In this document: positions 34,105 to 46,061 of the stretch, piece after piece | How the letters are laid out: each line of letters starts with the position of its first letter | Position numbering within the stretch: the stretch's first letter is position 1 | DNA from: a virus | Length of the DNA: 46,061 nt | Reading direction: 5' to 3' (one strand) | IMG/VR virus record: IMGVR_UViG_3300037245_001880 | Coordinates: 1 to 46,061 of that record | Notes under the pieces: model-generated | Databases searched by the model: none | Told to the model about the DNA's origin: nothing | What the model saw: the letters and a program-made list of their open reading frames with translations, nothing else | Position numbers and translations under genes: made by a program

Positions 34105-34365
34105 CTAAACGACCCTCTCATAAGTTTTTTCAAAAATGTCTGGCTTACATGGATAAAACTCTCCATTTATACCTTTAATAATATAATCACCGACTGATGC
34201 AGTCATAATACCCTCTAAAGTTGGTATCTCAATCTTAATGGGAGAGATTGACCAATTAGAAATATCTGCACCAAGGTCTATTAGTCCAGATTTAATCCAT
34301 GTGTCTTGTTCTTCATCTCTAAACAAAATTGCATCAATAACAACTGGTTTTTTTCTGTATTTCAT
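34105..34365 (-). CDS. Common phage protein of the PGDYI/EFYPCKPDIF type
   Basis: This 86-residue protein begins MKYRKKPVVIDAILF and ends with GDYIIKGINGEFYPCKPDIFEKTYE, a pattern seen in many phages of diverse hosts. Function is unknown. The ATG at 34365 has GGAG seven bases before it and overlaps the stop of the methyltransferase (ATGA). It is a small ubiquitous phage gene and supports the view that the block was formed in phages. Confidence 0.85.
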   Translation of the reverse strand: MKYRKKPVVIDAILFRDEEQDTWIKSGLIDLGADISNWSISPIKIEIPTLEGIMTASVGDYIIKGINGEFYPCKPDIFEKTYERVV

Positions 34366-35087
34366 TTTATCACTCCACAAATTACTATGTATTGCTCGAA
34401 TTTTTCAACCGTTTTAAACTTCATTAACCGGCCATATTTTTTGGTAACAGAATCAATGCTATATTCTCTTACATGAGTAACATCTTGTCTCTCTTTCTCG
34501 AAAGGCACTGTGGCATAGACAGTACAGCCCTTGGGTAGTTTATCCAGTAATTCGATATCACCATCAATGTGTTCTAATACTTCAGTTATTATGGCAACTT
34601 CACAACCGGCATAATCATAATCATAGATATCTACTATTTCAAATTCAATCGCTGGGTACAATCTACGCGCATGAAAGAGGATGGCTAGTTTAGAGAAGTC
34701 TATCCCTTTTATATCCCTAGATACATTAAAATAGAGCATATCAGAGAACCAACCAACACCGCAACCGATATCAATAAACTTTTTATTCATCTCTTTATTT
34801 TCTACCATCATTTTAATTAAGTGTATTGCGAGGTTTTGATAACACCCCCAATTATAACCGTACTTGTAACGTAGACTATAGATATCGGCTCCGAATTCTT
34901 TTATTATTCTCTCGCTCTCTCGCTCCTGATCTTCCTCAATTTTTATTATATTTTTTTTGGTTTTTCTAATTTCGTCTTGTGAATTAGTTATATTTTTTAC
35001 AATTTCTAATGTTTTAATATCTTCCAATTCTCCTACTGCTTCAATATATTCCTCTTTCTCTTTTACATTCATTTTTGTTTCTTCCAC
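34362..35087 (-). CDS. SAM-dependent methyltransferase (small-molecule or sugar type)
   Basis: This 241-residue protein starts at a GTG preceded by AGGAG. Its N-terminal 65 residues form a charged coiled-coil-like helix (RKTKKNIIKIEEDQERESERII). The methyltransferase domain follows: FIDIGCGVGWFSDML (SAM site), GIDFSKLAILFHARR, EVAIITEVLEHIDGDIELLDKL. It lacks the NPPY motif, so it is not an adenine DNA methyltransferase; it fits class I enzymes acting on small molecules, sugars or proteins. It lies just after the glycosyltransferase, so its substrate might be a glycan. Confidence 0.82.
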   Translation of the reverse strand: MEETKMNVKEKEEYIEAVGELEDIKTLEIVKNITNSQDEIRKTKKNIIKIEEDQERESERIIKEFGADIYSLRYKYGYNWGCYQNLAIHLIKMMVENKEMNKKFIDIGCGVGWFSDMLYFNVSRDIKGIDFSKLAILFHARRLYPAIEFEIVDIYDYDYAGCEVAIITEVLEHIDGDIELLDKLPKGCTVYATVPFEKERQDVTHVREYSIDSVTKKYGRLMKFKTVEKFEQYIVICGVIK

Positions 35088-35089
35088 GG

Positions 35090-36163
35090 TTAGACTCCTA
35101 TCTCGTCAAACGCTATTTTTAGTTGATTTTCCATTGTATATTTGTACCTTTTATTAAGTACATTCTTTTTGCAATTGGCCCAAAATTTAGCATCATGCCA
35201 GGGTACCTTATCAAGATTTTCTATACCTTGGACGCTTACACCAAATCCGTGTTTTACCACCCAATCACCAGCGGCTTTCGCATTGAGGCATATAATAGGT
35301 AATCCAGCAGCTATTGAGTCAAGCAACTTATTAGGGAAGCACATCTGTATTTCCGGACAATCCACATTACTGCCAACAAAGGCATAGTCATAGCGGGTGT
35401 ACTGATCTATAGCCGCGTACATTCTCATAGTGCCGTATGTACAGGCTCCAGCGAGTGTGTAAGGCATTAAATTAGCATTAGGTGTGGTATTGTATAGGTG
35501 ACTCGCTATACCTAGCTCTGTGAACTTCTGGAAGAGGGGTACACAGTCTCGATAATGTAGTTTACTGTTCATCTCTGGCACATTCACTTGACCGCAATAC
35601 AGAATACCATTTACGTGAGGTAGAGACTGTAGAGGAAAATACATTTCAGGGGCACATGAGTATGTTACTTTGATCTTGTTTTTACCCTTAATGGCAGGGT
35701 ATTTATCTTCAATTAGTTTGACATAATCGATAGTTGGTACAAATATAACCTCGCTTTTTTCTATAGCGTTCTTCTCTTGCGCGTTCATTTCTGGATTATC
35801 TTCATATCCTGGGTGGAGTGTGGGTAAGTCATGACAATCGTGCCACACCTGCCTATCTCTTTTTACGCTTGGTTCATTGGCAAGTTCGGCCATCAAGTCA
35901 GGCTCATTATGGCACCATATAATATCGGCATCACTATCACGCATGGCTTTTTCTAATTGGCTGGGTGTTTCCCAGATTTTAACATGATTAAATATATGGG
36001 CGGCCTGTAATTCAGTTACCAGACTAAATCCACCGGCTTTCGTTACAAGCTCTAGCTCATAACCTAGATTATAAGCAGCTACAGCCATTTTAATATTTCT
36101 TAAGCAGCAGAACCATGTTGCAATTAGTATTTTGGGTTTAGTATTCGTTTTAGTATTTGTCAT
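35090..36163 (-). CDS. Glycosyltransferase, GT-B fold (GT4-like)
   Basis: This 357-residue protein has the two-domain GT-B layout. The N-terminal part has KILIATWFCCLRNIKMAVAAYNLGYE and DADIIWCHNEPDLMA; the C-terminal sugar-nucleotide part has FPNKLLDSIAAGLPIICLNA, KHGFGV. The PNK-x3-S-x-AAGLP motif is typical of GT4 enzymes, which transfer a sugar from a nucleotide donor. No signal or membrane segment. It may glycosylate a virion protein or host surface glycan; position in the late operon favours the former. It overlaps the upstream gene by four bases. Confidence 0.85.
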   Translation of the reverse strand: MTNTKTNTKPKILIATWFCCLRNIKMAVAAYNLGYELELVTKAGGFSLVTELQAAHIFNHVKIWETPSQLEKAMRDSDADIIWCHNEPDLMAELANEPSVKRDRQVWHDCHDLPTLHPGYEDNPEMNAQEKNAIEKSEVIFVPTIDYVKLIEDKYPAIKGKNKIKVTYSCAPEMYFPLQSLPHVNGILYCGQVNVPEMNSKLHYRDCVPLFQKFTELGIASHLYNTTPNANLMPYTLAGACTYGTMRMYAAIDQYTRYDYAFVGSNVDCPEIQMCFPNKLLDSIAAGLPIICLNAKAAGDWVVKHGFGVSVQGIENLDKVPWHDAKFWANCKKNVLNKRYKYTMENQLKIAFDEIGV

Positions 36164-36995: not shown

Positions 36996-37355
36996 TTATT
37001 TGGCAAAAACTTCCGCTTTTACATTAAATTTAATATAAGAGGTAGTTGTTATGGGGTTCATTCTAATTCTTATTGAATTGGCAAAATTAGAAACATTGGT
37101 CAACTTAGCATTTGCTGTTGTAGTCATATCGGGGTGTAATGTTGCATACTGTACCCAATTAGTTGTATCTACTCTTGTATCAAGATATACGGCTGGTGCA
37201 ACTGTGCTATTTACTATAACGCTTGTGACGAAAACACCTGTCATGTGTCCTGTAACGTCAATTGCATCACCTAATATAGATGTGGATAAATGAGTAGCGG
37301 CTAGGGCGTTTTCGAATAGTGTAATAGGCTTTGTTTTAATAAATGGTACTGACAT
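36996..37355 (-). CDS. Virion-associated protein, paralogue of the next gene
   Basis: This 119-residue protein aligns with the gene at 37407: both share ST/TT-S-[IL]-LG-[DE]-AI-[DE]-V, TTTAN-x2-[LY]-T-x-V-[ST]-NF, and [IR]-x3-P-x-TTTS. It is beta-rich, as expected for a head decoration or an Ig-like surface protein. It directly follows the capsid genes. AGGAG lies about eight bases before the ATG. Which virion site it occupies is not known. Confidence 0.7.
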   Translation of the reverse strand: MSVPFIKTKPITLFENALAATHLSTSILGDAIDVTGHMTGVFVTSVIVNSTVAPAVYLDTRVDTTNWVQYATLHPDMTTTANAKLTNVSNFANSIRIRMNPITTTSYIKFNVKAEVFAK

Positions 37356-37406: not shown

Positions 37407-37775
37407 TTATCTTTTTAGTACTGCTTTCACAGTATAGGCTACTACCGATGTAGTAGTGCTGGGAAATAACCCCACACGTATAGTATCACCAAAATTAGTG
37501 ACTGAAGTATATGTGCTATTAGCAGTTGTAGTAATATCAGCATCAAGCGTGATACTATTACCCCAAGTTGTGCCACCATCAGGGCTTACTTGCATATATA
37601 GGCCATGGGCACCAGACGTATTAGCTGTAACATTACAAATAACAGCCATTTCAAAAAAATCACCGACTTCTATAGCTTCACCAAGTAATGAGGTAGTTAA
37701 TGTAACAGTGGTTGATGCCTGAGTTTGTAATGTTAGGCGGTCTGTTCTATATTCTCTAGTTTCGACATTAAACAT
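37407..37775 (-). CDS. Virion-associated protein (122 aa), paralogue of the gene at 36996
   Basis: The product begins MFNVETREYRTDRLTLQ, then TVTLTTSLLGEAIEV and MQVSPDGGTTWGN, and ends VAYTVKAVLKR. All beta strands, no Cys cluster; typical for capsid-surface or fibre-like proteins. It is ten bases after the capsid gene. The pair with 36996 arose by duplication. Confidence 0.72.
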   Translation of the reverse strand: MFNVETREYRTDRLTLQTQASTTVTLTTSLLGEAIEVGDFFEMAVICNVTANTSGAHGLYMQVSPDGGTTWGNSITLDADITTTANSTYTSVTNFGDTIRVGLFPSTTTSVVAYTVKAVLKR

Positions 37776-37785
37776 TGCACACCCC

Positions 37786-38727
37786 CTAGCTTATTACAGT
37801 GGTTAGTAAGTATCCACAATCAACAGCGCAAACTTTTTGCACTTCATTAACTGTAGTACGTGCTATTTCACTATCTGTTTGATCTTCACGATATGTTTTA
37901 GCTTGTAGGCCATTTACCTGGATGTTATAACCAACAGACGGGCGCATAATGCCAGGAGTCTTGTTGATGTATCCCATAAATACCTTTTTAGACATCATGT
38001 CCGCCAGAGTTACATCCTGTCCCTCTTCCGCTGTATTATAAAGAGATTGAGAAATAAGTAGCTCTTCCATCTCAAATAATCGTTTAAGAAGGTCGATAGT
38101 TACGATAGTATCGGTAGTAGTTTTAATACGCGCTTTAATGTCTGAGTGTTCTTTGATTTTTAGCCAAACATCATACGGTAGTACCATCTTATTTGGTATA
38201 CGCCCGCAAGCCTTACGGATAACTTCCTTGTATTGGTCAACAATCCCAACAGGGTCAGAATTATTATTGTCCCATCTATCGCCAACAGCGAGTGCAGCGG
38301 TTTGGGATGACCATACGGTTGAATCAGTAATTGCACTAATAACGCGGTTTTCACGTCTTAATAGTATAACCTGTGCAGCAGACTCGGCCGCTGTTCGTCT
38401 TGGGTTATATGGTTTCAGTGCGTTTGCCTGTACTCGATCGTCTACAGCTATTTCCCATCCGTCTTGGATAGTTTGATAGGTGTCTGTTCCAATAAATAGT
38501 TGACCACGGCCATACTTAGTTCCAGGCGCGCGCTCTGTTTTATTGGGAAGTGTGAAGAACCCTTTACTATCCTTAAAGGTGTAAAAGGTGCCAGATTCAC
38601 CGCTTGGTGCGGCAATTGATGGAAACAACTTATCAGCTATAAAGCCATCTGTCTCCTGTGAATACTGTATAACGAATTGTGTTAACAGTGGGTCTACTGG
38701 GTGTACGTTTTTCTTTCCTAATGCCAT
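37786..38727 (-). CDS. Major capsid protein
   Basis: This 313-residue protein begins MALGKKNVHPVDPLLTQFVI and has FIADKLFPSIAAPSGESGTFYTF, an extended region (ERAPGTKYGRGQLFIGT) and later GRIPNKMVLPYDVWLKIKEHSDIKARI and VFMGYINKTPG. The pattern is that of Mu-like and related phage capsid proteins with an HK97-type fold. Position downstream of protease/scaffold and decoration gene is classic. AGGAG lies before the ATG. Confidence 0.88.
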   Translation of the reverse strand: MALGKKNVHPVDPLLTQFVIQYSQETDGFIADKLFPSIAAPSGESGTFYTFKDSKGFFTLPNKTERAPGTKYGRGQLFIGTDTYQTIQDGWEIAVDDRVQANALKPYNPRRTAAESAAQVILLRRENRVISAITDSTVWSSQTAALAVGDRWDNNNSDPVGIVDQYKEVIRKACGRIPNKMVLPYDVWLKIKEHSDIKARIKTTTDTIVTIDLLKRLFEMEELLISQSLYNTAEEGQDVTLADMMSKKVFMGYINKTPGIMRPSVGYNIQVNGLQAKTYREDQTDSEIARTTVNEVQKVCAVDCGYLLTTVIS

Positions 38728-38738
38728 GATAATGCTCC

Positions 38739-39164
38739 TTATGCTTCGATTATTCTACGAGGTGCAATAAGCTGAACGGACACAATGTCCGATGCGGCAT
38801 ATGTTTGCCCGTTAGATATGGCAGCCGCAATGCTGCTTGTAGATGTAAGTACAATACCGTTACTAGAGGCATTCGCACCAATAAAAATTGATGTAGTGTC
38901 TAGTTTTAGGGTTGTATATGCTGTAGATGCCATTTTAAGGCGAGTAATCCCACCAGCACTACATAAGGCAATCTTACCAGTGTCATTTGGGTTGATGGCC
39001 TCTTGTGTCACACCATAGGCACCTAGTCCCTTAGTGGCGATTGTATCGACTGAACCCTCAGTAGTAGACAATTTACAAAAAGTAAATGCCGGTAGAGTAG
39101 TTGTTGCCGCGTTTGTCATAGTTATGGGACATAATCCCATTGAAAATGCTTTGCTCATATTCAT
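38739..39164 (-). CDS. Head decoration protein (DUF2190-like)
   Basis: This 141-residue protein has the pattern of small Ala/Thr-rich beta proteins of the DUF2190 type: TLPAFTFCKLSTTEGSVDTIA, GLGAYGVTQEAINPNDTGKIALCSAGG and NGQTYAASDIVSVQLI. Such proteins stabilise the capsid shell. It lies between the protease/scaffold and the capsid gene, where decoration genes are usual. AGGAG lies just before the ATG. Confidence 0.82.
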   Translation of the reverse strand: MNMSKAFSMGLCPITMTNAATTTLPAFTFCKLSTTEGSVDTIATKGLGAYGVTQEAINPNDTGKIALCSAGGITRLKMASTAYTTLKLDTTSIFIGANASSNGIVLTSTSSIAAAISNGQTYAASDIVSVQLIAPRRIIEA

Positions 39165-39170
39165 ATCCTC

Positions 39171-39761
39171 CTATAATTGATACTTGGCTGTGTATGCTTC
39201 AGCTAGCTTTGAGTTTTCGGCACAAACTAATGTGACAGCTTCATCAAAAGTGCATTTTGATTCTGCCATTTTTTTGTTGGCCTCAACTACCATCTGAGTT
39301 CCAGGGTCATCGGAAAGATTTTGCTCTTCACCTTTGCCAGCACTACCCTTCTCGTCCAGGTCGACGATTTTAGACATTTTTAAGAGGTCTTCTTTAACGT
39401 TCACGGGGTCTGCCATGTAGCGTTTTTCATAATATTCCTTGTCCTTGGGTAGCAATTTACCATCGGTAATCGCTTTGTTAATGGCCTCATCTCTGTCTCT
39501 CTCATTGAGTTTGACTTCGAGGTCTCCCACTTTTTTATTGGAATCTTCCAATTTCTTGGCCACTTCCGTATCTGTCAAGGTTTTCTTGCTATTTTCCTTG
39601 TCTGCGAGTTCTTTGGCTTTCTTTGCTTCAGCTTCAATTTTTGTAACTTTCTCACCCAATCCCTTATTGGAAGTAAGAAGCTCGTCAATCTTGGCTAAAA
39701 TAGAATCCTCAGAGGCATCGGCAGATAGGCCGAATTTTTCAACTAATTTTTCATTTTCCAC
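39171..39761 (-). CDS. Nested scaffold protein from an internal start (predicted)
   Basis: Within the protease gene, AGGAG followed eight bases later by an in-frame GTG (codon 291) would start a 196-residue protein. It begins V-E-N-E-K-L-VEKFGLSADAS, is mostly coiled coil (DEAINKAITDG, KKLEDSNKKVGDLEVKL, LEKF-type heptads), and ends at the same stop. Nested scaffolds made from internal starts are known in Mu (gpI/gpZ) and other phages. The scaffold guides capsid assembly and is cleaved by the protease. Confidence 0.7.
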   Translation of the reverse strand: MENEKLVEKFGLSADASEDSILAKIDELLTSNKGLGEKVTKIEAEAKKAKELADKENSKKTLTDTEVAKKLEDSNKKVGDLEVKLNERDRDEAINKAITDGKLLPKDKEYYEKRYMADPVNVKEDLLKMSKIVDLDEKGSAGKGEEQNLSDDPGTQMVVEANKKMAESKCTFDEAVTLVCAENSKLAEAYTAKYQL

Positions 39762-40631
39762 TGTATGTGCTCCTAATTTTTTATTTGGTAACTTCTTAAC
39801 GCTCTTGGGTGTCTGCCTACCTTGAATATTATCAGCCTTTGGGCCTACTTTCTCGGGGCTACCTTTAATTGTTAATTCGGATAATTTGTATTCTGCCATT
39901 CCTCTATTATCGAGTACTGCTGTTTCGTCTATGATAGAGGGCATGGTCTTAAGAAACGGGATATTGGTTGCAGCACCACCCCGTAAAACATTTTTAAACT
40001 CTTTTTGTGTCTCTGGGTCTTTATATGAACCCCATGAAGGAGAAAAATAACGGTAAGTCCTTTTTGATAATATACTTTGCCCTAATTCTGTATAATCCGG
40101 TTTAATATAGAGTCCCAAACCTGGGCGAATAAAGGGAGAAGAATCAAACCATGCGAGGGATTTATTTTCATCATGCTGCATATCCATGAAGGGCTTCACA
40201 TGTAGGACATTTGCCTGGTAATTATCAATTATCTCATTAAAAAAATTATTGTCAAACGTCATCTTTCCGTACGATGGATGCTCGAATTCTCCAAACGGAA
40301 AAAGCATGATATCTTCTTTGGGTTCTGCTCCATTGTCTGTTAATTGTAGACCGTCTGTCCATATATTCATTGTTCCCATTTTACATTTATTCCTTATATT
40401 TTTACTACCTCGTCTTCCATGACTTCTACCATGTTTTTTTGCATGTTCCTCTTTAGTAAGCGGCTCCATATTACCTGGACTATTGTCCACATTATTACCA
40501 TTTTTATGATGTATCTCTTTACCCTCTATGGCTTTTTCACCAAATACTTCCTTTGCCTTGGCTCTAGTTCGGGCTCGTATGGCTCTTTCTTCAGACTCAA
40601 CGGCAAGTGGGGTTCCTTTAGGTAATGGCAT
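39171..40631 (-). CDS. HNH motif fused to capsid protease and scaffold
   Basis: This 486-residue protein has three parts. Residues about 1-85 carry an HNH nuclease signature (EIHHKNGNNVDNSPGNM and LTKEEHAKKH). Residues about 88-275 match Mu gpI-type protease: NIWTDGLQL, HVKPFMDMQHDENKSLAW (catalytic His) and YRYFSPSW (catalytic Ser). Residues about 290-486 form the scaffold. A methionine at 85, preceded by AAGGA, could start the protease alone. The HNH part resembles a mobile nuclease fused in frame with the head gene. AAGGA lies before the first ATG. An assembly error could also join two genes, so the fusion needs checking. Confidence 0.85.
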   Translation of the reverse strand: MPLPKGTPLAVESEERAIRARTRAKAKEVFGEKAIEGKEIHHKNGNNVDNSPGNMEPLTKEEHAKKHGRSHGRRGSKNIRNKCKMGTMNIWTDGLQLTDNGAEPKEDIMLFPFGEFEHPSYGKMTFDNNFFNEIIDNYQANVLHVKPFMDMQHDENKSLAWFDSSPFIRPGLGLYIKPDYTELGQSILSKRTYRYFSPSWGSYKDPETQKEFKNVLRGGAATNIPFLKTMPSIIDETAVLDNRGMAEYKLSELTIKGSPEKVGPKADNIQGRQTPKSVKKLPNKKLGAHTVENEKLVEKFGLSADASEDSILAKIDELLTSNKGLGEKVTKIEAEAKKAKELADKENSKKTLTDTEVAKKLEDSNKKVGDLEVKLNERDRDEAINKAITDGKLLPKDKEYYEKRYMADPVNVKEDLLKMSKIVDLDEKGSAGKGEEQNLSDDPGTQMVVEANKKMAESKCTFDEAVTLVCAENSKLAEAYTAKYQL

Positions 40632-40642
40632 ACTGATATTCC

Positions 40643-41470
40643 TTAATCATCTAGACTATTATCACGTAATATAAGGTCATAACCACCGACTGAATCAATT
40701 ATTTTACTGGCGGTTGTAACTAATATTCTAATATCTGTTTTTTCTGGAATAATACCGGCTGGTATACCATATTCATATTGCCAATGCGAGTTACCTATAT
40801 TGATTAACCCCATTTGTCCCTTAGTCTGCCATGCTCCATTTACTCCATTATTCGACCTTGCTTGCCACTGGAAGGTAGCATCTACACCATTTTTATCATT
40901 ATGCATCATACCTACATATCCCTTGACAAATAAAGCACTTTTACCGTGAGGGACAGTGTACATGGCCTGTTGTGTTTGTCCATCATTGGCTCGTATAAAG
41001 GCTCCTACAGTTGTGGCAGCTTGTATTCTCATAGAAATATTACCGATATTCGTTTCATAACTTCCAGCGGTTACGGCTGCTGCCCTGTTCATCCTCTTAT
41101 ATGTATTAGTAAGTGTAACGGGGGTAGTACCATTCATTGTTGCTATCTCGGTTATCGGGTCTAAATTATTATCTAAACCCTCCACATAAACAGTCCTTGC
41201 ACCAATACCCGCGCCAGTATCTCCACCACTTGCGCTTAGAATTTCCATAGTTTTAGCAACGGTTGGGTAAAACTTATATGCACCTAAACCAGACCAAACG
41301 CCTATACCGCCAGTAGATGCCGTGAGTGGATTATGACCAAATTTATTAACTGCGGAATACCCTGGCACAAGACCAAATGCAACCTCCATAAAGAAATATG
41401 AACTAAATAAACCACTGCTATCTGTTAACCGGATATTTGTATCTTCACCTTTAATTCGTACCTTGTTCAC
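40643..41470 (-). CDS. Structural protein of unknown site (275 aa)
   Basis: This protein has a pattern seen in virion proteins of diverse phages: SSYFFMEVAFGLVPGYSAVNKFGHNP, GVWSGLGAYKFYPTVAKTMEILSASGGD, and GARTVYVEGLDNNLDPITEIATMNGTTPV, followed by a C-terminal beta domain (GIPAGIIPEKTDIRILVT). It lies between the portal and protease genes. It is probably on the head surface or at the neck. Proteomics of particles would place it. Confidence 0.72.
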   Translation of the reverse strand: MNKVRIKGEDTNIRLTDSSGLFSSYFFMEVAFGLVPGYSAVNKFGHNPLTASTGGIGVWSGLGAYKFYPTVAKTMEILSASGGDTGAGIGARTVYVEGLDNNLDPITEIATMNGTTPVTLTNTYKRMNRAAAVTAGSYETNIGNISMRIQAATTVGAFIRANDGQTQQAMYTVPHGKSALFVKGYVGMMHNDKNGVDATFQWQARSNNGVNGAWQTKGQMGLINIGNSHWQYEYGIPAGIIPEKTDIRILVTTASKIIDSVGGYDLILRDNSLDD

Positions 41471-41483
41471 TTTTTACCCCTTT

Positions 41484-43721
41484 TTAACCTACGTTTCCCA
41501 TCATTTCAACATCCCTAATTTTGTAAATATTAACACATCGACATTTGCCGCCGCCCGCGCATGTCGGGTTTGGTGTTTGAAAGTCTGGGTTATCTATTGC
41601 GTGTTCTACCCCATCTTTAGGGGAACACTGGTTACATGTCCCATGATCTAATACCGCACTATATACCGCAAATTCTATTTGATCTGTATAAGTACCCGCC
41701 TGTACTTCTCTACCCAGCCCATATGCCTTATTAGTACTTGCACTTGCAATATTGGCTATATCCCTATTACCTGTGGTCATAATCGAATCATAGATAGAAT
41801 TTGATTTTTGGGTATCTGTAGTAAGTGATGGGTCTAAATTATATAGAGCAAATAACCCAAGTCCTAGTGTTTTATTACTTATGGCAGTTGAATCGGCTTT
41901 AGATTTATCATTTAAGTAATCCAACACCTCTTCACTATCGCTAAATTCATCATTATCTAATAACTCCGGCTCCGTTAATTCTTTATTTTTAGAGACCATT
42001 TTCTGCATTTCTATTTCTTCTCTAAGATGACGTTTTCCCTTATTCATCTGTCTTTTTTGCTCTTTAAATAACCGTTCTGCTAATTTCTCCACATAAGGCA
42101 TTTTGATCTGGTCGGCTGTTTTAACAAGTAATTCGGTGGAGAGGAATCTGGCTTGCTGGTCCTTAATCTTTAATACTTGTTTAGTGAATTTGTCTACTCC
42201 GCTATCTAGAGTAGCTTCTATTTCATCAAGGTCGCATAATTGTTCTTCGTATTCTGTTAGCTTTCTACGGTGTTTATACTCTTTCAGCTTTTTAACATCG
42301 TCATGAATAGTGGCACCCTTATCATCGTCTGTATCTTCTTTGGGTATCTCTTTTTTCTGCCCCTTCGTTGGCTCTTTCCCTTCATCCTCTCCAGGTAGTT
42401 GTGCGCCGGCCTGAGCTTGTATCTCTTTTTTCAGCTTCTCTCGCTCTGCTATGATTTCGTCAGTGAGTTTGGGTAATCCCGCTGTCTCACGTAATAATTG
42501 CTCTATTGGATTATCACGAGTAAATGCATTATTTAACCCCATTTTAGCTAATGATTCCATCCACTTGGCACCATTTAAAATTATTCTATTACTCTTTAAT
42601 CTGGGATATTCTTTTACATTCCAATTCATATCTACGAGCTGTTTAATGACGAATCGGTTCATTATCTCTGAAAAGTATTCACCAATTGCATTTAATGATA
42701 CAGCGAATAATTCTTCAAAAGACTCGCCTAGTGAACGGCTGCCAGAATCGCTCGTACCGAGGTTTATAAACTGTGCCAGTATGTTTTTACTAATCTCTTC
42801 GTTATGATGTTTGATAGAGCCTATAATTGCCTCATTACCCCCAGATTTTTCAAACATTTCCATTTTCCACTCATTGGGGAGGTGCATATAGGCTTGTTCG
42901 CGAGAGTGAAGATTTTTGAGTATGGTACTGACTCGTTTTTTATCTCCTTCGTTTGCAGATGGTGACTCGGTTACTACAGGAAAACCAGATGCCCACCGAT
43001 CGTGCCCGATTGCATCAATTTTATAGAGCTTATCTTTAATATACCAATGTTTATATGCAGACCTTAAAACGCTTATGCCCTCGAAGTTATTACCCTCTTG
43101 GTCATTAGTAAACATCACCAGTTTTTCTCGCCATATATCAATATAATCGTAATTGCTACTATCACCCTTTTGGACAAATTGTTGCACACCAGAGAAATTG
43201 TCATCTTTGTCGGTATACCAACGGTAAATGGTACTCTGTTTTCTAGGTGCAAGCTTAGACAACATGATTTTATTGTCGTCTGTTACTTTGAATACTTTCT
43301 CAAATATAGAATATCCGAAAGGTAAATATCCCAAAGCCTGTCGTAGGAAGTCATCCCATGTAATACTCATTTCCCTGAAGAGGTTTTTCTGGATGCGTTC
43401 GGCAATCTCTTTATCTTCAGGTTTATCGCTGGCTGGTTCAATAAACCACGTCGCTTGCCTTATTGGTAGCATTATCGCATAGAGTGTGCCGTGTATCTGG
43501 GCATCGTTCCTACGCATCTTATCATAGATAGATATTGCATTAAGTCCGGTTAGTTCTGGTAGATATTCATCATTAGTAATGAACCCAGAGAAAAATTCTG
43601 TACCGGTTGCACCATATGTGCGGAACGGAGATTGTTTACGGGGTTTATTATCGAATACACCGGCAGAGTTTAGTTGATAGATACCGGAAGAGGTTGGCTT
43701 GGAGTAACCATTTAAATTCAA
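41484..43721 (-). CDS. Portal protein fused to a MuF-type head protein
   Basis: This 745-residue protein has a DUF935 (Mu gp29-like) portal in residues about 50-470: ISIYDKMRRNDAQIHGTLYA, FLRQALGYLPFGYSIFEKVF, WYTDKDDNFSGVQQF, LVMFTNDQEGNNFEGISVLR. A charged linker follows (about 430-490). The C-terminal part (about 490-745) is MuF (Mu gp30-like), with the Cys cluster CNQC-x3-DG...C-x4-KCRCVN. In Mu these are separate proteins. It starts at a TTG with no clear SD, close to the promoter at 43779. The late head operon begins here. Confidence 0.9.
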   Translation of the reverse strand: MNLNGYSKPTSSGIYQLNSAGVFDNKPRKQSPFRTYGATGTEFFSGFITNDEYLPELTGLNAISIYDKMRRNDAQIHGTLYAIMLPIRQATWFIEPASDKPEDKEIAERIQKNLFREMSITWDDFLRQALGYLPFGYSIFEKVFKVTDDNKIMLSKLAPRKQSTIYRWYTDKDDNFSGVQQFVQKGDSSNYDYIDIWREKLVMFTNDQEGNNFEGISVLRSAYKHWYIKDKLYKIDAIGHDRWASGFPVVTESPSANEGDKKRVSTILKNLHSREQAYMHLPNEWKMEMFEKSGGNEAIIGSIKHHNEEISKNILAQFINLGTSDSGSRSLGESFEELFAVSLNAIGEYFSEIMNRFVIKQLVDMNWNVKEYPRLKSNRIILNGAKWMESLAKMGLNNAFTRDNPIEQLLRETAGLPKLTDEIIAEREKLKKEIQAQAGAQLPGEDEGKEPTKGQKKEIPKEDTDDDKGATIHDDVKKLKEYKHRRKLTEYEEQLCDLDEIEATLDSGVDKFTKQVLKIKDQQARFLSTELLVKTADQIKMPYVEKLAERLFKEQKRQMNKGKRHLREEIEMQKMVSKNKELTEPELLDNDEFSDSEEVLDYLNDKSKADSTAISNKTLGLGLFALYNLDPSLTTDTQKSNSIYDSIMTTGNRDIANIASASTNKAYGLGREVQAGTYTDQIEFAVYSAVLDHGTCNQCSPKDGVEHAIDNPDFQTPNPTCAGGGKCRCVNIYKIRDVEMMGNVG

Positions 43722-45934: not shown

Positions 45935-46061
45935 CTACGTCACTAGCTACTTCAATAGATTCGGGGTGACGGGAATCGAACCCGTAACGCATAGATTACT
46001 ATCGCTCTGAGCCATTGAGCTACACCCCTACTGCATTACTTAATGCCAAATAATCTTTTAA
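45935..46061. repeat. Terminal direct repeat, right copy
   Basis: Identical to bases 1-127. It holds a second view of the tRNA-like element (45961-46029, minus strand) and the start of the overlap with the small gene of 102-374. It should be removed once when the circle is closed. Confidence 0.95.

Follow-up and report, generated by a model that had tools for sequence, protein, structure and literature searches.

A probably acquired HNH nuclease gene reads in frame into a Mu-like capsid protease in one phage lineage

We found that an HNH nuclease domain, a Mu-gpI-like protease, and a scaffold are encoded by a single open reading frame (ORF) on the minus strand of a 46,061-nucleotide viral sequence (IMG/VR record IMGVR_UViG_3300037245_001880, positions 1 to 46,061; this whole stretch is hereafter called the window). 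The ORF listing and translation showed 486 codons without a stop, at 39171-40631, starting from the ATG at 40631, and the parts were assigned from the ORF call, Pfam, and PHROGs. We consider it probable that a selfish HNH nuclease gene was acquired upstream of the protease and that its frame continues into a protease with a start of its own. What appears to be new is a homing-type HNH gene in frame with a capsid protease, in one lineage only, with both parts belonging to known families.

The N-terminal part matched the Pfam profile HNH_3 (PF13392) at residues 30-64 (40440-40544, minus strand; E 5.4e-6), with 26.4 bits, slightly above the cut-off of 24.8, and this core scored 30.7 bits in a genome-level profile search. 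Its H-N-H residues were intact and the motifs HHKNGN and LTKEEHAKKH were present, bearing out the HNH pattern that the initial annotation had read here. Downstream, residues 108-438 (39318-40310, minus strand) matched Mu-like_Pro (PF10123; E 1.2e-26, 94.5 bits against a cut-off of 25.2) over positions 1-302 of the 330-position model, and this domain was also supported by alignment and by AlphaFold. An alignment of 17 rows, 16 of them proteases, showed that His153 was invariant and that Ser197, Thr222, Asn223, and Pro225 were near-invariant. A separate five-row alignment that included the RR1-B and RDJL6 proteins was misaligned, and those two were dropped. The profile match, His153, Ser197, and the open frame agree with the earlier proposal that a Mu-gpI-like protease with its His and Ser follows the HNH part without a stop.

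The PHROGs matches in the ORF fell into two sets, HNH families as far as residue ~82 (phrog_7545, E 1.7e-9) and then families of head maturation proteases beginning at residue 98 (phrog_328, E 5.1e-22). A weak match to phrog_4590 (E 0.015) aligned residues 14-82 with positions 27-96 of the 100-position profile, which places the end of the HNH part close to that profile's C-terminus. Searches of Pfam and PHROGs found no model credibly spanning both the HNH part and the protease; phrog_59 had coordinates that cover both, but its E of 0.009 was judged not credible. The two parts belong to distinct Pfam and PHROG families, and the join lies where it had first been placed, at codons 84-88 (40382-40368).

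A second contig, IMGVR_UViG_3300043172_000465 (12441 bases), was base-identical to the window over its full length (12.4 kb) and spanned the window ends. Because this second IMG/VR contig is base-identical, the open frame is not the fault of a single assembly, though the two assemblies may share reads. Along the whole of residues 1-120, from the HNH part across the join into the protease, codon statistics favoured the frame of the ORF over both alternatives. The window carries a direct 127-base repeat at its ends (1-127 and 45935-46061), which the second contig bridges, making this a circular or terminally redundant genome of ~45.9 kb. Rfam, but not ARAGORN, identified a tRNA within this repeat (RF00005, 48 bits).

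The genes around the ORF lie on the minus strand and comprise a portal protein with a C-terminal MuF-like region (41484-43721, by Pfam), a 275-aa structural gene immediately upstream of the HNH part (40643-41470, phrog_8198), a putative decoration (cement) protein (38739-39164), assigned from the loci of relatives and a weak Phage_cement_2 match, and the major capsid protein (37786-38727, phrog_1005). The order portal, protease, (decoration), major capsid is that expected for PF10123 proteases. Relatives of the 275-aa gene occur in cyanophages, some of them annotated as tail fibre. Downstream of the capsid gene are two small paralogous neighbours (36996-37355 and 37407-37775), both retained in locus L126, and the structural region also holds a pair of adjoining genes (34362-36163), one methyltransferase-like and the other, of 357 aa, glycosyltransferase-like in sequence but lacking a Pfam match.

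Using the portal as a query, we found 40 loci in viral contigs. The closest protease-bearing relatives, L125 and L126, have a portal 65% identical and a protease 60% identical to those of the window. Neither carries an HNH at this place, where the portal is followed by a 267-aa gene and then directly by the protease. Their protease starts with MNIINQWHEGL (MNIINQWHEGLTLADNNAEPK), the equivalent of Met88 in the window. In the distant relative L144, a free-standing 127-codon HNH_3 ORF (E 9.4e-13) lies between the MuF and protease genes. At one site, an HNH is therefore joined in the window, absent from L125 and L126, and free-standing in L144, these relatives being distant. The gap between portal and protease genes ranged from -21 to 3684 nt among relatives, and the interval is a variable cargo site. 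The phrog_8198 relative in L124 precedes a 497-aa gene, and the 267-aa gene that L126 has in that place is unrelated. The MuF protein adjoining the free-standing HNH gene (L144:2173-3669) has an apparent intein-like insertion (weak Intein_splicing match, E 0.008), which ends in VVSNC.

Among 194 protease ORFs (153 distinct) drawn from viral contigs, genome contigs, and two 398-genome surveys, and scanned with a motif pattern that misses degenerate HNH motifs, an in-frame HNH occurred only in the window sequence and its copies. Because some other protease ORFs carry different extensions, such as a DUF6582-like one in L172, N-terminal additions do occur in Mu-like protease ORFs, and no other nuclease was seen in these sequences. 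Mu-like protease domains were also present in ~850-codon frames of three bacterial genomes (G496:C4:28823-29434, G516:C114:1217-1984, and G690:C15:20200-20892). With the whole protein as query, tblastn against GenBank phages returned nothing at 1e-5 and, at E up to 10, distant matches only, mostly Mu-like proteases. Pattern scans with the HNH part alone or the protease part alone recovered the identical contig only. In 398 genomes from the phylum of the host of L039 and in all plasmids, no 84-aa homologue of the HNH part was found, only distant HNH cores. A search of the literature found no described case of an HNH joined to a head protease.

Two possible starts were then compared by their ribosome-binding sites, all on the minus strand. 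The HNH part comprises residues 1-84 (40380-40631), as delimited by Pfam, PHROGs, and AlphaFold, and Met85 is the first methionine past it; start-site analysis and comparison with L126 suggest that a protease-scaffold made from Met85 would have 402 aa (39171-40379). The Shine-Dalgarno site for Met1, TAAGGA at 40640-40645, overlaps the TAA with which the upstream 275-aa gene ends, and an identical TAAGGA for Met85 lies in the tail of the HNH part at 40391-40396, 11 nt before the ATG at 40379. The calculated duplex energies were -6.2 for Met85 and -6.1 for Met1, with spacings to the ATG of 11 and 8 nt, respectively, and the Met85 site was one of the three best among the 114 internal in-frame ATGs. 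Met88 (40370), three codons further, has a weak site (-3.3). The sequence TAAGGAATA is present at both junctions; this repeat may be a duplicated intergenic site or simply the overlap of stop and Shine-Dalgarno site. The GC3 of the HNH part was 0.23, compared with 0.33-0.37 in the protease, portal, and capsid genes, a weak difference (binomial P ~0.01, uncorrected for multiple comparisons, with the neighbouring 275-aa gene also low at 0.28) and a weak sign of foreign origin.

We also modelled the protein with AlphaFold. The whole-protein model showed a confident protease domain at residues ~100-235, for which the 34 best PDB fold matches were all herpesvirus proteases (assemblins), with weak E values (0.025-0.9), and a herpes-assemblin-like fold is predicted for the protease. 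The linker at residues 67-99 had a pLDDT below 50 and is predicted to be disordered. The HNH part was poorly modelled in the whole protein because it has few relatives. When it was modelled alone together with one relative, the mean pLDDT was 74, with a helix at 8-30, beta strands at 39-42 and 55-58, and an alpha helix at 60-67, a predicted beta-beta-alpha HNH core at 39-67. A fold search with this model gave weak matches only, the top three being HNH proteins, and a two-sequence profile built from the HNH parts of the window and L144 found I-HmuI in the PDB (1u3e, E 8e-4).

These findings are best explained by a small HNH gene of homing or intergenic type that would have been inserted in front of the capsid protease gene, after the structural gene that follows the portal. 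The 3' end of the HNH gene retains a ribosome-binding site, and with no stop before the protease start in this lineage, the two genes read as one ORF. The working protease-scaffold would come mostly from internal initiation at Met85 (or Met88), while translation from Met1 would yield some HNH-protease-scaffold fusion. The HNH, carried on a disordered linker, could be cut off the fusion by the protease. Among the origins first put forward, a homing-type element that lost its stop fits best, given that the relative with 60% protease identity has no HNH, L144 has a free-standing one, the protease start is kept, and the profile matches I-HmuI. We infer the internal initiation, the homing-type origin, and any products in the virion.

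Several features of known phages are in line with such an insertion. Phage homing-endonuclease genes commonly adjoin capsid and terminase genes and often contain frameshifts or variable stops (PMC10448857); several such genes in T4 overlap adjacent ORFs (PMC2988022), and in-frame internal starts are known in the Mu-like protease/scaffold family, in KS10 (PMC2628397). Counting against it, the frame continues unbroken across the join in both assemblies, so that fused product is expected at some level; the 11-nt spacing at Met85 is on the long side and the site at Met88 is weak; and the HNH part has no recognisable extra DNA-binding domain, which leaves its homing putative. The age of the insertion is uncertain because the closest relative is only 60% identical. 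An intron-borne HNH was not supported by any Rfam intron match, and an intein was rejected, the HNH being at the N-terminus without an upstream N-extein.

The ORF could alternatively encode a functional HNH-protease-scaffold polyprotein, as the initial annotation also suggested, which we consider unlikely. The scaffold part would bring the fusion into the procapsid, self-cleavage by the protease would free the HNH, and the nuclease would either work inside the head, for instance during packaging, or be injected along with the DNA to attack the host or competing phages. The continuous frame in two assemblies, the intact HNH residues and predicted beta-beta-alpha core, and a disordered linker suited to cleavage are all compatible with a polyprotein, and effector-domain fusions are known for the head proteins MuF and portal (PMC5576092, PMC5512222). 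The carriers described in the relevant sections of these two papers are MuF and portal proteins, not the Mu-like protease. Further against a polyprotein, the architecture is confined to a single lineage among the 153 distinct protease ORFs, the protease on its own still has a good internal start, and the closest relative works without an HNH. A packaged nuclease would moreover require translation from Met1, not internal initiation, as the main route.

Slightly less probable, in our judgement, is that the two genes lie in separate frames and that the join looks open through a sequencing or assembly indel or a mixed population. The candidate places are an A7 run in the HNH helix (40434-40440, minus strand; codons GCA AAA AAA CAT), at which an indel or slippage would put the two parts in different frames, and an A5 run upstream of the join (40399-40403). 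A one-base change in these short runs would bring in the stops that cluster in the remaining two frames shortly before Met85 (40383-40407, minus strand), with TAA at 40396 in one frame and TAG at 40407 and TAA at 40404, 40389, and 40383 in the other. The cluster falls where one would look for the end of a separate HNH gene, and it also counts for the acquired-gene reading; the relatives do have separate genes. The second contig, identical over 12.4 kb, argues against such an error, with the same reservation about shared reads, as does the rarity with which short-read assemblers miscall A runs as short as A5-A7.

Marginally less probable again is a decaying, non-functional HNH remnant whose ORF is open by chance and of which only the protease from Met85 or Met88 is used, since the intact HNH residues and fold core and the good Met1 ribosome site leave no visible degradation to set against the shortness of an HNH without an extra DNA-binding domain, its sporadic presence among relatives, and the frameshifts and variable stops frequent in phage homing-endonuclease genes (PMC10448857).

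The preferred reading, an acquired HNH gene running into a protease with its own start, bears on how such elements persist. Should the ORF reflect read-through alone, it shows how a selfish HNH gene may lodge beside an essential head gene and do it no harm, since that gene retains a start of its own. Should the fusion be produced and packaged, it would represent a new means of bringing an enzyme into a phage head, with the protease/scaffold as carrier in place of MuF or portal.

The protease resembles the Mu-like prophage I protease (PF10123; phrog_328; Mu I/Z, BcepMu, and KS10 gp28/gp29) in its conserved His and Ser, its predicted assemblin-like fold, its in-frame scaffold tail, and its place upstream of the decoration and major capsid genes, and differs from the other inspected PF10123 members in the HNH joined upstream in frame. 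The HNH part shares its core with free-standing phage HNH_3 proteins (PF13392), one of which, in L144, occupies the same place between the MuF and protease genes; unlike those genes, which end at their own stop, it continues in frame into the protease. By profile (E 8e-4), the HNH core is also like that of I-HmuI (PDB 1u3e) and the T4 Mob-type HNH homing endonucleases, the genes of the latter being intergenic cassettes that use upstream transcription, several of them overlapping adjacent ORFs. In contrast to these, the window HNH has neither a group I intron nor a recognised extra DNA-binding domain, and its homing is putative. An extra enzymatic domain on a head-associated protein would also recall the MuF polymorphic toxins and polyvalent proteins, whose carriers, in the sections cited above, are MuF or portal. 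In the window, as read from the open frame, the putative cargo would instead sit at the N-terminus of the protease.
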